Source: Microbacterium sp. RU33B
Lineage (GTDB): Bacteria > Actinomycetota > Actinomycetes > Actinomycetales > Microbacteriaceae
Direction of reading: 5' to 3'
DNA length: 64,000 bases
NCBI RefSeq assembly: GCF_900155915.1
Contig: NZ_FTPO01000003.1
Location: forward strand, 186,001-250,000
The notes beneath the pieces were generated by a model. That model was not told the origin of the DNA. It saw only the letters and a list, made by a program, of their open reading frames with translations, and did no database searches. Below, piece by piece: positions 13,017 to 19,721 of the stretch (its first letter is position 1; every line of letters starts with the position of its first letter). A program made the position numbers and the translations under genes.

Positions 13017-13047
13017 TTGACGCGCGTCCGCATCGTTTCGATAGCCT
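13017..13047 (+). promoter_or_regulatory. Promoter of the receptor/channel operon
   Basis: TTGACG and TAGCCT are separated by 19 bases, and the -10 box lies 24 bases ahead of the GTG at 13072. The spacing is longer than ideal. A GGGGGG run near 13061 acts as ribosome-binding site. Confidence 0.5.
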
Positions 13048-13071
13048 GACGAGACATCGACGGGGGGCTGA

Positions 13072-15258
13072 GTGACCACGCCATCGCATTCACCGGTTAC
13101 CGAGAGCGAACGACTGCGCGACGAGGGCGCCCGTGAAGGGGCCGCCGCATCGGTGAGCACGCCGCGGCGGCGCGGAGGGCTGAGCATCCAATCGAAGCTG
13201 CTCATCATGCTGCTGGCGGTCAGCCTGATCTCCTCGGTCATCGTCGGCGTCATCGGATTCCTCAACGGGCGAGACTCCCTGCGGGCGGCGGCGGTCGACC
13301 AGCTCACGACGATCCGCGAACTGCGGGTCGGCGAGCTCGAAGCCACGATGAGGAGCACGCAGAAGGGTGTGGCGCTGGACTCGCGCAACCTCAGCGCTCA
13401 GACGGCATCCCAGGCGATCAACGCCGGGTGGGACGACCTCCAGAATCGCGAGCTCACCCCCGAGCAGCTGGCCGAGCTCGAGGCGTACTACGCCGACACC
13501 TTCAACGCCGATCTCGAAGCGCGGACGGGGGATCAGTACAGCGAGACGGCCTTCATCCCCGACTCGAACGCCGGCAAGTGGGTGCAGTACCACCTCACCT
13601 CGCAGTTCGCCGACTTCGACGAGGCGCTCGCGGTCAACGACAGCGGCGACGGCACACCGTACTCCGCCGCCACGGAGCAGTACGGCGACTATCTGACGCG
13701 TCTGGTGAACCAGGTCGGCTACGAGGACCTGCTGCTGTTCAACCTCGAGGGCGATGTCGTCTACAGCGCCTACAAGGGCGTGGACCTCGGCACCAATGTG
13801 CTGACCGGCCCGTTCCGCGAGTCGCTGCTGGCGGAGGCCTACCGCGACGTGGTGGCGACGAACAGCGTCAACGCCGTCGAGACGACCGACTTCGAGCGGT
13901 GGATCCCGTCGCTGAACGCGCCGACGCTGTGGGTGGTCTCTCCGGTCGGCAACGACTCCACGATCACCGGCGTGCTCGCCGCGCAGATTCCGATCTCCCG
14001 CGTCAACGACGTCATGACCGGAGGCGAGCGCTGGAAGGAACAGGGCCTCGGTGACACCGGCGAAGTGTTCCTCGTGGGTGCGGACAGGCTCATGAGGAGC
14101 GTGTCGCGCGTGCTCGTCGAAGATCCTGACGACTACGCCGAGCGCGCGATCAGCGCGGGGACTCCTCCCGCAGTCGCGCAGCGCATCGTCGAGGTGAACG
14201 GCACGGTGCTCCTGCAGCCCGTGAACACGGTCTCCGTCGACAACGCCCTCAAGGGGGAGAGCGGCAACTCGGAGTCCGTCGGCTACCTCGGCACCGACGG
14301 CATCACCGCCTACAGCCCTGTCGAGGTCGACGGGTTGAACTGGGTGGCGGTCGCCCGCATCGACACCTCCGAGGCATTCGCGCCGGTGACGGAGTTCACC
14401 CGCACTCTCCTCCTGTCGCTGCTGGGCATCATCCTCGCCGTGAGTCTGCTGTCGCTGCTGCTCGCCCAGGTGTTCACCCGACCGATCAAGAAGCTCGTCG
14501 ACGCCGTGCGCCGCGTCGCCGGAGGTGACCTGGCGGTCGCCGTGCCGGTCGGCACACGCGATGAGATCGGCGACCTCGGCACGGCGTTCAACGACATGGC
14601 GTCGAGTCTGCGGATCAAGCAGGAGCTGATCGACGAGCAGCAGGCCGAGAACCAGCGCCTGATGCACACGCTCATGCCCGAGAAGGTCGCCCAGCGCTAC
14701 CGACAGGGAGAGGAGACGATCTCCGAGGAGCACGACAACGTCTCGGTCGTCTTCGCGGAGCTCGTCGGGTTCGAGGAGTTCGCGGCCGACCTCAGCGGCG
14801 ACCGCGAGACCTCGTTGCTCAATTCGCTGATGCGGGGCTTCGACGAAGCGGCGAGCAAGGCGGGTGTCGAGAAGGTGCGCACACTCCGCGGCGGCTACCT
14901 CGCCAGCTCGGGGCTGATCGTCCCACGCGTCGACAACGTGCGCCGCGCCGTCGACTTCGCCCGCGAGATGCGCGTCGTCGTGCAGCGGTTCAACTCCCAG
15001 AACGGCACGCAGATCGATCTGCGGGCCGGTGTCGACACCGGCACCGTCACCAGCGGGCTCGTCGCCCGCACGAGCCTCGCGTACGACCTGTGGGGCGACG
15101 CGGTCTCGCTGGCGTACCGGGTGCGCAGCGTGACAGGGCAGCCGGGCATCTACGTCACCCAGGCGGTGCGCGACAGGATGCAGGACAGCGTCGCCTTCAC
15201 GCCGGCCGGGTCGGTGGAGCTGCGCGGGAAGTCGCAGAACGTCTGGAGGATCGAGTAG
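13072..15258 (+). CDS. Cache-HAMP receptor with degenerate class III cyclase domain
   Basis: The 728-residue protein has a cytosolic N-terminus, a first membrane helix at about 43-64, a double-Cache-like extracellular region of about 375 residues, a second helix at 443-467, a HAMP domain (I-K-K-L-V-D-A-V to about 520) and an adenylate/guanylate cyclase homology domain (545-728). Compared with Mycobacterium Rv1625c, both metal-binding aspartates are replaced: Glu563 in V-V-F-A-E-L-V-G-F and Gly607 in T-L-R-G-G-Y. The transition-state Asn is Ser679. Substrate-recognition Lys601 and Asp672 and Arg683 remain. Catalysis of cAMP or cGMP synthesis is therefore doubtful; nucleotide or protein binding may survive. 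The channel gene follows two bases after the stop, so extracellular ligand sensing probably controls the channel. Confidence 0.87.
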   Translation: MTTPSHSPVTESERLRDEGAREGAAASVSTPRRRGGLSIQSKLLIMLLAVSLISSVIVGVIGFLNGRDSLRAAAVDQLTTIRELRVGELEATMRSTQKGVALDSRNLSAQTASQAINAGWDDLQNRELTPEQLAELEAYYADTFNADLEARTGDQYSETAFIPDSNAGKWVQYHLTSQFADFDEALAVNDSGDGTPYSAATEQYGDYLTRLVNQVGYEDLLLFNLEGDVVYSAYKGVDLGTNVLTGPFRESLLAEAYRDVVATNSVNAVETTDFERWIPSLNAPTLWVVSPVGNDSTITGVLAAQIPISRVNDVMTGGERWKEQGLGDTGEVFLVGADRLMRSVSRVLVEDPDDYAERAISAGTPPAVAQRIVEVNGTVLLQPVNTVSVDNALKGESGNSESVGYLGTDGITAYSPVEVDGLNWVAVARIDTSEAFAPVTEFTRTLLLSLLGIILAVSLLSLLLAQVFTRPIKKLVDAVRRVAGGDLAVAVPVGTRDEIGDLGTAFNDMASSLRIKQELIDEQQAENQRLMHTLMPEKVAQRYRQGEETISEEHDNVSVVFAELVGFEEFAADLSGDRETSLLNSLMRGFDEAASKAGVEKVRTLRGGYLASSGLIVPRVDNVRRAVDFAREMRVVVQRFNSQNGTQIDLRAGVDTGTVTSGLVARTSLAYDLWGDAVSLAYRVRSVTGQPGIYVTQAVRDRMQDSVAFTPAGSVELRGKSQNVWRIE

Positions 15259-15260
15259 TC

Positions 15261-16682
15261 ATGGATCTCCTCCAGGAAGGCTGGATCTGGTGGGCGGTCG
15301 CCATCGCGGTCGGCGTGCCGATCATCCTGGTGGTCCTGACGGAGGTGCTCGGTGCCCTCGTGCGGCGCGGCAGCGCGGCGGCGAAGCCCGTCCGGCTGCT
15401 GCGCAACTGGGTCGTCCCCGTCGCCGCACTTCTGGCCCTGCTCTACTTCGCGTTCCGCACCGACACCGACAACGCCTGGCCGCGCGTCGTCGCGACCGTC
15501 CTCGGGTTCCTGCTCATCCTCCTCGTGCTGTCGGCGTTCAACGTGGCGCTGTTCTCCCGCGCGAAGGAGGGCAGCTGGCAGGAGCGCATCCCGACGATCT
15601 TCGTCGAGCTCGCGCGCCTCATCCTCGTGGTCGTGGGCTTGGCGCTCCTGTTCCAGTGGGTGTGGAACGCGGATGTCGGCGGACTCATCGCCGCCCTGGG
15701 AGTCACCTCGATCGTCATCGGCCTCGCCCTGCAGAACGCAGTCGGCGGGGTCATCTCCGGACTGCTGCTGCTGTTCGAGCAGCCGTTCAAGATCGGCGAC
15801 TACCTCGATGCCGCCGGCGTGCAGGGCAGGGTCATCGAGGTCAACTGGCGCGCATGCCACATCGACACCGGTGCCGGCATCCAGATCATCCCGAACTCGA
15901 CGCTCTCGGGCGCCTCGTTCACTAACCTGAGCCAGCCGGTGGGGGCGTCGCACATCTCCTCGACCGTGGCGTTCACGACCGACGACCCTCCGCACGAGGT
16001 CATCTCGCTGCTCGTGGAGGTGGCCGACTCGCTGCCGATGCGGGCCGACGGAGAACGGGCCAGCGCCGACTATCTCGGGGCGGGCAAGTACTCGGTGAGC
16101 CTTCCGATCAACGGCCCGCAGTTCGCGCCGCAGGCCCTCAGCCTCTACCTCGCCTGGCTCTGGTACGCGGCCCGCCGTCGCGGGCTCGCCCTCGACGGCG
16201 ACGCCAGCGACCCCATCGCCGAGCCCGGCCGACTGGAGAAGGCACTCGATGTCGTCGGCCCGACGCTGCACCTCGGTGAAGCGGAGCGCGCCCTCGTGCT
16301 GTCCACGTCGAAGCTCGAGCGCTACGGCCTGGGCGAGATCGTCCAGCCCGAGGGCGTCCTGCCGCACGACATCCGCTTCATCGTGGAGGGGCGCGTGCGG
16401 CTCGCCGTGAACGCCGCCGGCGGACGCATCGAGTTCGCGACGGCCGAGCCCGGCGACTACGTCGGCCAGACGGCGCTCACCCGCGAGAAGACCCTGACGA
16501 CCGCGGTCGCCGCCGATGTGCTCACGGTCCTCGTCGTGCCGTTGGAGACGGTCGACGAGCTCGTGCGCTCGCGCCCTCTCCTGGCCGAGGAGATCGGGCA
16601 GTCGATCGAGCTCAAGCGCAAGCTCGCCGCCGAGGCGCTCGCGGCCGCGGGCGTGGTGAAGGGCACCCTCGGGGGTCCCTGA
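15261..16682 (+). CDS. MscS-family channel with C-terminal CNB-like domain
   Basis: The 473-residue protein has an N-terminal membrane region of about five helices ending in the MscS pore helix and beta-domain entry (A-L-G-V-T-S-I-V-I-G-L-A-L-Q through E-Q-P-F-K-I-G-D). A cyclic-nucleotide-binding (CAP-type) fold occupies about residues 322-460. In its phosphate-binding cassette the usual Glu is Gln403 (Y-V-G-Q-T-A-L), and the Arg that holds the cyclic phosphate is absent; Leu412 or Thr413 falls there and the nearest Arg is Arg408. MscS-CNB fusions are known as bCNG channels and open on nucleotide rather than tension. Here the ligand may differ. The ATG lies two bases after the receptor stop, so the two proteins are coexpressed. 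Confidence 0.85.
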   Translation: MDLLQEGWIWWAVAIAVGVPIILVVLTEVLGALVRRGSAAAKPVRLLRNWVVPVAALLALLYFAFRTDTDNAWPRVVATVLGFLLILLVLSAFNVALFSRAKEGSWQERIPTIFVELARLILVVVGLALLFQWVWNADVGGLIAALGVTSIVIGLALQNAVGGVISGLLLLFEQPFKIGDYLDAAGVQGRVIEVNWRACHIDTGAGIQIIPNSTLSGASFTNLSQPVGASHISSTVAFTTDDPPHEVISLLVEVADSLPMRADGERASADYLGAGKYSVSLPINGPQFAPQALSLYLAWLWYAARRRGLALDGDASDPIAEPGRLEKALDVVGPTLHLGEAERALVLSTSKLERYGLGEIVQPEGVLPHDIRFIVEGRVRLAVNAAGGRIEFATAEPGDYVGQTALTREKTLTTAVAADVLTVLVVPLETVDELVRSRPLLAEEIGQSIELKRKLAAEALAAAGVVKGTLGGP

Positions 16683-16721: not shown

Positions 16722-19721
16722 ATGGCGACGGCGCGCGGCAGGGGCATCCTCGCCGTCGTCGTCTCCGCGAGTCTGCTGGCGGCCGGTGCCGGTGTCGGCC
16801 TCGTCGTGGGCGACGCGCTCGGCATCCGCACGGAGGCGTCCGCGCAGATGACCCCGGCGCCGCCCGTCGTCCCGGAGATCGCGCCGTCCGTGCCGCCGCC
16901 CCGCATCGCCGCGGTCGACCTGCCCCCGGGTCCGCGGTTCGAGGCCGCCCTCGACGAGCTCCTCGACGCGGTCGCCGATGCCCCCGCGCGTGCGGGCGAG
17001 ATCGCTCTCACCGTCTCGGTCGCCGCGGACGCGACGCCGACGGAGGACGCCTACGAGGTCGTCGAGGTGGACGGCGGACTGTCGGTGCGGGCGCCGTCCG
17101 AAGCCGGGGCGGTGCGCGGCGTCTACGACCTGGCCGCCGCCGTCCGGGCCGGCCGCGATCTGCGCGGAGAGGTCGGCGCGCACGCGGCATCCGCGCTGCC
17201 GCTGCGCATGGTCGACCTGGGGGCGGTCGGCGTCGCGGTGGATCCGTCGCAATGGGCCGACGGCACCGACTACTCGCACGTCTCGCGGGCGTTCGACGAC
17301 GTGTACCTCGCCGAAGAGCCCTACATCGATGGCGATGCACTCTCCGACGCGTACGTCGAGTGGGACGAGTTCCTGCGGCACTCTCTCGCGAACGGCTACA
17401 ACGCCGTCGCGTGGCCGGGCTTCGTCGAGTACGCGACCTTCGACGGCGTCTACGCCGACGGTGACCCGCACCTGGCACGCGCCGCCGCACTCACCGATGC
17501 GTTCGGACCCTTCTGGGACCACGCGGCCGCGCTGGGCGTCAAGGTCTTCCTCCGCACCGACATGCCCACGCTCTCGCCCGAGCTCGAGGCATCCTTCGTC
17601 GACCGCTTCGGATCGCTCGACACCGAGAATCCGGCGCTGTGGCAGGTCTACGCCGATGCGCTCGACACGCTGTACGCCGCGCAGCCCGCGCTGAGCGGCG
17701 TCCTGATCCGCATCGGCGAAGGCGGGTCGATCTACCAGGAGCCGGGCTGGGACTACTACTCCGCGATCGCCGTGCGCACACCCGAAGCCGTGCGGACGAT
17801 GCTCGAGACGTACGCGGCGCAGGCGGAGGCGTCCGGCCGCGAGGTGATCTTCCGCACCTGGAGCGTGGGCATCGGCGACGTCGGCGACATGCACACGGAT
17901 GCCGACTCCTACCGGGCGGTGCTCGACGGCGTCGATTCGCCCGCCCTCATCGTGTCGACGAAGTACACGCTCGGCGACTTCTACAGCTGGCTGCCGCTGA
18001 ACGACACGCTCGCCGTCGGCGACCAGCGGCGCATCGTGGAGTTCCAGAGCCGTCGCGAGTTCGAGGCGTTCGGGTCGTTCGCGAACGACCTCGGTCCCGA
18101 GTACCAGTGGGCGCTGCAGACGCTCCTCGCCGAGAATCCGCGCATCGAGGGCGTGTGGACGTGGACGCAGGACGGCGGTCCGTGGCGAGCCGGACCCCTG
18201 TCGCTGTATCTCAAGTCCGGGTTCTGGCAGCTCTCCGAGCTGAACACCCTGACGGCTGCCGCGCTGGCGCGCGATCCGGACGCGGATGTCGGCGAGGTCA
18301 CCGTCGCCTGGGCGCGCGAGTACTTCTCCGACGACCCCGCAACGCTGACGGCGATCGTCGAGGCGATGGCGCTGTCGCGCGACGCCGTGCGTCAGGGGCT
18401 GTACCTGCAGCCGTTCGCCGAGGAGCGCGCGTTCGCGATCGGGCTCGAGCCGCCGCCGCAGATGTGGCTGTTCGAGTGGGACATCCTCACCGGCGACTCG
18501 GCCACCCTCGACGTGCTGTACACGATCATCGGGCGCGACCGCGTCGACGAGACGATCGCGCTCGGCCGCGAGGCGGTCGAGACCGCCGACCGCATGAAGA
18601 CGCTGGTCGAGGCGACGGACGTCGCGACCTGGCGCGACCCGTCGCTGCGCGAGGCCTTCACGACGACGCTCTCCTACGAGGCCGACACACTGCGTCTCCT
18701 CTCGGCCTATCGCGAGATGTTCCTGCGCCAAGCCGAGTGGCACGACACGCTGTCGCCCGACGCGCACGCGCAGTGGCAGCAGGCGCGCGACGCGTACGCG
18801 GCGCTCGCGGCCGAGCACCTCGCGCAGTACGACGGAGATCTCGACCACCCGGCCTGGAACCTGACGGCCGCGCAGCTCGGCGTCGACCGCGCCGACCGCG
18901 ATCTGCCCATGGCCTGGGCCGCGCGCGTGCTGCTGGTCCTCGGGGCGGCGTGGGTGCTGATCGGCATGTTCGCGGCCCGCACGCGGCTCGTGCGCCGACC
19001 GGGTGCCGCGGCCGCCCGGGCGACGTGGCTCGGGTCGACCCGGCCGTGGCGCGCCCGCGAGTCGACGCTCGGCCTCCTGCCGCTCGACAAGTGGCTGCTC
19101 CTCCTCGTGCCCGGCGGGCTCCTCGTCGCGACCCGGCTCGTGCAGACCTCGTTCCTGTCGTGGACGCACCCCGCCCTCGTGTTCGCCGCCTGGATCGCGT
19201 TCGCCGTCGTCGTGCGCCTCATCGTCGGGCGCCGCTCGCCCTGGCCGGTCATGGCCGCGGTGGGCGGAGTCGTCGTGCTGCGCTGCCTCGTCGCCCTCGC
19301 CGCCCTGTCGCTCACCGGACCAGGGGGGTACTGGTTCGCGTTCTGGACCGAGCCCGCACTCCGCGTCGTCTACATCGCCGTCGCGTTCGCCCTCTTCGCG
19401 TGGCTGTTCGTCGCCGCCGGATGGGCGCTGTCGGCCCAGTTCGGAGCCCGCCGCTCGTGGGGTGCCGTGCTCGCCGGCGTCGGCGCGGGTCTCGCCGTCC
19501 CCGCGCTCGCGGTGGCGGCGGTCGGCCTCGAGCCGGCCCTCACGATCTGGAACGACCAGGTGGGGCTCCTGCCCTGGGGCCTCGCCCGCATCCTCGGGAT
19601 CACGACGTACCTCGAGATCCCGGATGCCTCGGCCCTCGTCGCGGGCGTGTTCGGCCTGGCCGTGTGCGCGGTCGGGGTGCTGCTGGCCCTGCCGTGGCGA
19701 CGCACCCGCGTCGAGGCCTGA
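16722..19721 (+). CDS. Membrane-anchored glycoside-hydrolase-like protein
   Basis: The 999-residue protein has an N-terminal hydrophobic segment (about 9-30), a Pro-rich linker, a GH20b/GH67-N-like alpha/beta domain (ending G-V-Y-D-L-A-A-A-V near 145) and a large barrel-like region to about 720. Within it, L-I-R-I-G-E-G-G, S-T-K-Y-T-L-G-D-F and R-I-V-E-F-Q-S-R-R-E-F-E recall alpha-glucuronidase-type (GH67/GH115) enzymes. The last 270 residues form about seven membrane helices, the first at A-A-R-V-L-L-V-L-G. Soluble GH67 enzymes do not carry such a bundle. It would expose the catalytic domain outside the membrane. Catalytic residues cannot be assigned safely. It is transcribed from its own leaderless-type promoter. 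Confidence 0.6.
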   Translation: MATARGRGILAVVVSASLLAAGAGVGLVVGDALGIRTEASAQMTPAPPVVPEIAPSVPPPRIAAVDLPPGPRFEAALDELLDAVADAPARAGEIALTVSVAADATPTEDAYEVVEVDGGLSVRAPSEAGAVRGVYDLAAAVRAGRDLRGEVGAHAASALPLRMVDLGAVGVAVDPSQWADGTDYSHVSRAFDDVYLAEEPYIDGDALSDAYVEWDEFLRHSLANGYNAVAWPGFVEYATFDGVYADGDPHLARAAALTDAFGPFWDHAAALGVKVFLRTDMPTLSPELEASFVDRFGSLDTENPALWQVYADALDTLYAAQPALSGVLIRIGEGGSIYQEPGWDYYSAIAVRTPEAVRTMLETYAAQAEASGREVIFRTWSVGIGDVGDMHTDADSYRAVLDGVDSPALIVSTKYTLGDFYSWLPLNDTLAVGDQRRIVEFQSRREFEAFGSFANDLGPEYQWALQTLLAENPRIEGVWTWTQDGGPWRAGPLSLYLKSGFWQLSELNTLTAAALARDPDADVGEVTVAWAREYFSDDPATLTAIVEAMALSRDAVRQGLYLQPFAEERAFAIGLEPPPQMWLFEWDILTGDSATLDVLYTIIGRDRVDETIALGREAVETADRMKTLVEATDVATWRDPSLREAFTTTLSYEADTLRLLSAYREMFLRQAEWHDTLSPDAHAQWQQARDAYAALAAEHLAQYDGDLDHPAWNLTAAQLGVDRADRDLPMAWAARVLLVLGAAWVLIGMFAARTRLVRRPGAAAARATWLGSTRPWRARESTLGLLPLDKWLLLLVPGGLLVATRLVQTSFLSWTHPALVFAAWIAFAVVVRLIVGRRSPWPVMAAVGGVVVLRCLVALAALSLTGPGGYWFAFWTEPALRVVYIAVAFALFAWLFVAAGWALSAQFGARRSWGAVLAGVGAGLAVPALAVAAVGLEPALTIWNDQVGLLPWGLARILGITTYLEIPDASALVAGVFGLAVCAVGVLLALPWRRTRVEA

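Follow-up and report, generated by a model that had tools for sequence, protein, structure and literature searches.

A degenerate cyclase-homology receptor and an MscS-type channel form a conserved gene pair in actinobacteria and probably communicate without the usual chemical messenger

The receptor-channel gene pair

Here we describe a pair of genes in Microbacterium sp. RU33B, found in a stretch of 64,000 nucleotides (contig NZ_FTPO01000003.1, positions 186,001 to 250,000) that we call the window. The first gene encodes a Cache-HAMP receptor with a class III cyclase-homology domain and the second an MscS-type channel with a C-terminal domain that binds cyclic nucleotide monophosphates (cNMP), referred to as the CNB domain. 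Both lie on the plus strand, and only 2 nucleotides separate the TAG stop codon of the receptor, which ends at 15258, from the ATG of the channel at 15261 (Table 1). Open reading frames, Pfam domains and the dCache fold match agree with the preliminary description on this architecture and spacing. That description, made from the sequence, placed the start of the unit at 13017, which lies in upstream non-coding DNA; the receptor begins at the GTG codon at 13072.

Table 1. Features of the receptor-channel locus, in window coordinates
Feature	Position	Strand	Evidence
Cache-HAMP-class III cyclase-homology receptor, 728 aa, GTG start	13072..15258	+	Open reading frame; Pfam; phmmer to AC9/Rv1625c-type cyclases; dCache fold match
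Ectodomain, about residues 63-440, dCache-like	13258..14391	+	AlphaFold2 model; Foldseek
HAMP domain, residues 463-514	14458..14613	+	PF00672, 5.8e-17
Cyclase-homology domain, degenerate, residues 551-722	14722..15237	+	PF00211, 1.9e-32; AC9 alignment; 171-pair alignment
MscS-type channel with C-terminal cNMP-binding domain, 473 aa	15261..16682	+	Translation; PF00924, 1.4e-17; PF00027, 2.8e-9; MscS/YnaI PDB matches
CNB domain, about residues 355-438	16323..16574	+	Pfam; pair alignments
Inverted repeat, 21-nt, 95% complementary, 6-nt loop	12946..12993	n/a	Repeat search

The class III cyclase fold of the receptor (PF00211, Guanylate_cyc) scores 112.8 bits against a cut-off of 21.9, and the HAMP domain 62 bits. 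In the channel, both the MscS pore/beta domain (PF00924, 64 bits) and the C-terminal CNB domain (PF00027, 37.3 bits for a cut-off of 27.5) are present. One transmembrane segment precedes the receptor ectodomain and a second, at about residues 441-464, follows it. The Pfam score of the ectodomain is weak (dCache_1, 27.8 bits, below the cut-off of 45), but fold matches support a double Cache domain: the AlphaFold2 (AF2) model, with a predicted local distance difference test score (pLDDT) mostly of about 60-95, is matched by Foldseek to the ligand-binding domains of PctA, PctB and CtaA (E about 1e-8) and to mmHK1S-Z3. The resemblance of the modelled ectodomain to dCache domains of amino-acid chemoreceptors hints at first ligand candidates and identifies none. 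The receptor model was usable for the ectodomain only.

Residue changes in the cyclase-homology and CNB domains

Alignment with AC9 and across the 171 homologous pairs described below confirmed that the aspartate of metal site A is replaced by Glu563, that of metal site B by Gly607 and the catalytic asparagine by Ser679. The window receptor has thus neither of the two metal-binding Asp, and its transition-state Asn/Arg set is incomplete, with Ser679 in place of Asn and Arg683 kept. Lys601, Asp672 and Arg683 had been said to remain. Asp672 and Arg683 do; Lys601, in turn, is the preceding conserved lysine, two residues off the purine-recognition position, which in AC9 sits four residues before the metal-B Asp ('EKIKTIGATYMAASG') and corresponds to Arg603. 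The purine-specifying pair therefore reads Arg603/Asp672, with the lysine conservatively changed and the aspartate kept, and two of the six canonical residues are left, not three. In Rv1264, the D265A substitution alone abolished cAMP production (PMC8856561). That the receptor is non-catalytic is well supported, and from these residues catalysis would be expected to be absent in vitro.

The channel lacks the phosphate-cassette Glu and Arg of the bacterial cyclic nucleotide-gated (bCNG) type, as had been proposed. The cassette is replaced by GQTALTREKTLTTA (residues 402-415), where Gln403 substitutes for Glu and a Thr occupies the Arg position. The replacement is itself conserved, since the motif GxTxLTR occurs in 137 of the 168 channels of the main clade; the LTR motif is absent from the distant channels.

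Conservation of the pair across Actinomycetota

Searches of Actinomycetota genomes spanned the class, family and genus, a second genus and the phylum. They yielded 171 non-redundant pairs: 93 from Microbacteriaceae, 75 from a mycobacterial-type family (f12) and 3 distant ones, the main clade being 168 of these. The receptor gene lies directly upstream of the channel gene in all 171, mostly within about 15 nt. The distribution is patchy: within the window's own genus 68 of 247 genomes have the pair, and within the genus of genome G003 it is 119 of 148; in most other sampled families nothing comparable was found. One locus of the mycobacterial-type family (L206) carries two receptor-channel pairs in tandem.

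The preliminary description allowed for simple decay at this locus should most homologous pairs keep intact sites. The pattern is the opposite: at least five of the six canonical residues are found in none of the 171 receptors, both metal Asp are kept in 2 and metal B in only 7. The CNB Glu survives in a single channel of the 171 (L213), and Glu and Arg occur together in none. Eight of eight close relatives (58-86% identity) share the identical non-canonical residues, namely E/G/R, Ser679 and Gln403, and Arg683 is retained in 88 of the 93 Microbacteriaceae receptors. Pairwise ratios of non-synonymous to synonymous substitution (dN/dS) for the cyclase domain, calculated against seven close relatives, are 0.08-0.27, the same range as for the channel, which argues for purifying selection on the degenerate domain. 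Distance matrices of receptor and channel correlate with r = 0.95, as expected for linked genes, and in-frame stops appear only at scattered loci. Judged from these comparisons, the degenerate form is maintained under purifying selection and shows no local decay.

Not everything in the channel is specific to the pair. Among 13 unpaired proteobacterial MscS-CNB channels, taken as a control and lacking this receptor, the Glu is found in 7 and Pro-Arg in 1. It had been suggested that enzyme and sensor drifted together; both are indeed degenerate in the pairs, but a coupled event is only partly supported because cassette loss also occurs, and often, in these unpaired channels.

Triads and probable independent losses of catalysis

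In other classes of the phylum, the readable distant loci (L175-L177, L233-L238) show a receptor-channel-receptor order. The cyclase domain is degenerate in every readable triad receptor, and a further locus, L239, shows the upstream receptor only. Upstream receptors of the distant loci, L239 included, have lost metal A in 10/10, the Asn in 10/10 and the Arg in 9/10, and have retained the Lys in 10/10, the Asp in 9/10 and metal B in 8/10, nearly the reverse of the main clade. In triads for which both receptors could be read, neither receptor has metal A, Asn or Arg.

Receptors encoded on rhizobial plasmids (pSinB, pT173d and pSmeSM11c) share the full-length Cache-HAMP-cyclase architecture with the window receptor, at 33% identity over 91% of the length. 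They differ from it in having all six canonical residues (6/6) and no channel next door. The tree places these receptors between main clade and triads; its row L177_down duplicates the upstream receptor of that locus and adds no information. Because these intact receptors branch in between, it is suggestive, although the events are few and some branches long, that catalysis disappeared on two or more occasions, always from a receptor linked to a channel.

Cyclases and CNB proteins in pair-bearing genomes

In 11 of 14 pair-bearing Microbacteriaceae genomes, the receptors of the pairs are the only PF00211 matches. The other three (G000, G747 and G546) additionally encode a soluble protein with two cyclase-like halves. 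As a survey states in its abstract (PMC2447327), Actinobacteria have class III cyclases only. Because of both observations, most of these genomes appear to be left without an evident cAMP source, as far as class III cyclases are concerned, other cyclase classes not having been searched.

The soluble protein of the genome that carries the window (G000 C3:683879-684985; L012:4779-8642) is 1288 aa long and consists of the two cyclase-like halves followed by ATPase- and TPR-like sequence. It has the metal Asp in the first half and Asn/Arg in the second, resembles soluble adenylyl cyclase and is possibly the only competent cyclase of the genome. The same genome encodes a second receptor-channel pair (G000 C2, about 112.6-116.4 kb; L010:4603-8355), whose proteins are 45% and 42% identical to those of the window pair. 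The receptor of this second pair keeps the metal-A Asp and has lost metal B; in Microbacterium relatives the second pair is located between rpoA/ribosomal-protein genes and truA. In the genome of the window, no CNB proteins other than the two paired channels were found. Some relatives encode an extra CNB protein, which in L244, from a pair-bearing Microbacterium, is a fusion of CNB with a pyridine nucleotide-disulphide oxidoreductase, and CNB open reading frames of similar size occur in several other genomes.

Relation to known systems

The type of locus is not unseen. The window pair has the arrangement of Rv2435c/Rv2434c of Mycobacterium tuberculosis, i.e., a Cache-HAMP-cyclase receptor directly upstream of an MscS-CNB channel, whose long-standing annotations are adenylate cyclase and cNMP-binding membrane protein, respectively. 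The 75 pairs of family f12, all from one genus, are about 45% identical to the Microbacteriaceae pairs. We identify them as the Rv2435c family through the published reverse transcription PCR primers of MSMEG_3578, the M. smegmatis ortholog of Rv2435c (PMC3961136): in f12 loci the primer sequences lie where expected and correctly spaced, and the best fit has 3 mismatches over 40 nt. The reverse primer encodes LHNGYL, where the metal-B Asp is replaced by Asn. Rv2434c is taken as the channel partner because the gene numbers are adjacent and it has been described as a membrane protein linked to cAMP (PMC11205783). Mycobacterial pairs mostly have the metal-A Asp, Asn607 and Gln683, whereas the window pair has Glu, Gly and Arg. 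Publications still refer to Rv2435c as an adenylate cyclase (PMC4822843, PMC3961136), which is probably a misannotation. Shenoy 2004 (PMC2447327) mentions Rv2435c ten times and Rv2434c three times, and may already describe the neighbourhood or the residue losses.

bCNG channels (Caldwell 2010 and Malcolm 2012, cited in PMC4560390) belong to the MscS superfamily and carry a CNB domain. Like them, the window channel fuses an MscS pore to a C-terminal CNB domain; unlike them, it has no canonical cassette and has an obligate receptor partner. No homologous receptor was found next door in the proteobacterial MscS-CNB loci that we read. The closest solved cyclase domains to that of the window are those of Rv1625c and mammalian AC9 (class IIIa), which keep the functional metal and transition-state residues that the window domain has lost. 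All components are thus of known kinds, and the universally degenerate obligate pair, with its triad form, is the new variant.

Proposed mechanism and alternative explanations

The proposal that the pair was retained as a signalling unit while its link to cNMP was lost is well supported, because of the total linkage of the two genes, the low dN/dS and the convergent loss of catalysis. The altered receptor and channel sites are conserved as a pair across many actinobacteria, mycobacteria included, which makes it probable that the sensor acts on the channel by some way other than the usual chemical messenger. We consider it somewhat more probable than its alternatives taken together (about 0.55) that the two proteins form one conserved signalling module in which a non-enzymatic receptor controls the channel by direct contact. 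In this mechanism, the extracytoplasmic dCache domain would sense a ligand, and HAMP would relay a conformational change to a cyclase-fold dimer that has lost its enzymatic function. The pseudo-cyclase domain would then set, by direct contact, the open probability or the tension threshold of the co-expressed MscS-type channel. The contact site would be in the cytosolic part of the channel, most likely the CNB domain, which would act as a docking or coupling domain in place of a cAMP sensor. What can be read from the sequences is the architecture, the linkage, the loss of catalytic and cassette residues in nearly all pairs, purifying selection and convergent loss; physical contact, the direction of signalling, gating and ion conduction are what we infer.

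Several points weigh against direct contact. The loss of the cassette is not unique to the pairs and belongs in part to the general tendencies of this type of channel. A CNB fold can still be recognised and carries a conserved substitute motif, so it could have been re-purposed for another ligand instead of serving in contact. Mycobacteria have other cyclases, and cAMP from elsewhere could reach the channel. The joint conservation of Arg603 and Asp672 leaves room for a nucleotide that may still be bound. As for the contact itself, the AF2 model of the channel was too poor to be used (9-sequence alignment, pLDDT 52), and an analysis of inter-protein coevolution would need more than the roughly 63 effective sequences available for over 700 columns.

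The main rival explanation is retained nucleotide binding, because Arg603 and Asp672 are conserved together in 160 of the 168 main-clade receptors (the former in 163, the latter in 165). The pseudo-cyclase would bind ATP, GTP or another nucleotide without turnover, the altered CNB pocket would bind a different ligand, and the pair would integrate an outside signal with a cytosolic metabolite. The wide occurrence of GxTxLTR looks more like re-purposing than random loss. However, Asp672 is part of the structural YDxWG motif and its conservation may reflect folding, the distant channels do without the LTR motif, and neither the receptor nor the channel model is of pocket quality. Overall we regard this explanation as unlikely.

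A low-rate or non-canonical cyclase, with Glu563 partly replacing Asp, together with a cAMP- or cGMP-gated bCNG channel of unusual cassette, appears improbable. The intact fold, the strong PF00211 scores and the conservative Asp-to-Glu change at metal A are compatible with it, and the many unpaired MscS-CNB channels that do without the cassette suggest that it may be non-essential in this channel type. Against this, 164 of 171 receptors have no Asp at the second metal site, and residue losses that differ between lineages fit no single residual chemistry.

It is likewise hard to credit that the receptor joins a second cyclase subunit contributing the residues that the receptor lacks, and that the product of this heterodimer gates the channel. 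With Arg683 and Asp672, the Microbacteriaceae receptors do look like a C2-type half, some genomes have two pairs, and a soluble tandem cyclase-like protein exists in 3/14; but no class III domain was found outside the pairs in the other 11, and in triads with both receptors readable neither could complement the other at metal A, Asn or Arg. A complementary heterodimer of the two receptors of the window's genome, whose canonical positions read EGSRRD and DQNRRD, was also considered and rejected, as neither has the metal-B Asp. Simple decay of an old cAMP-gated channel pair would account for the departure of both active sites from the canonical sequence, but it is refuted at the family level by low dN/dS, an intact pair at 171 loci, residues fixed by lineage and in-frame stops confined to scattered loci.

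The module might represent an undescribed class of bacterial ligand-controlled ion channel, a broader claim to which we give a little less than even odds. It would be a complex of two components, three in some classes, in which a catalytically dead cyclase fold serves as the allosteric actuator of an MscS channel with no diffusible messenger; several classes of actinobacteria would have evolved it convergently, and mycobacteria would have it too. If the proposed mechanism is right, a pseudoenzyme would directly link an extracellular ligand to an ion channel in bacteria, and Rv2435c, routinely counted among the adenylate cyclases of M. tuberculosis, would be a channel sensor and not an enzyme. 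The mechanism would also be relevant to the question of why the cyclic-nucleotide pocket is broken in so many MscS-CNB channels.

Neighbouring features

No gene family recurs beside the pair in both main clades, so a third conserved component was not found and synteny is local only. The inverted repeat of Table 1, between an ABC permease gene and the receptor gene, is a possible hairpin; it has no T-run and was not scored as an intrinsic terminator. An open reading frame of 999 aa (16722-19721), 40 nt downstream of the pair, encodes a protein that has a membrane C-terminus and is not matched by Pfam; four related loci (L013, L014, L018 and L020) also have it close to the pair. The first of these, JASDDH010000011.1, is titled Planococcus sp. 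APC 4015; with 68% GC and Microbacterium-like genes and neighbours, it is probably mislabelled or contaminated.

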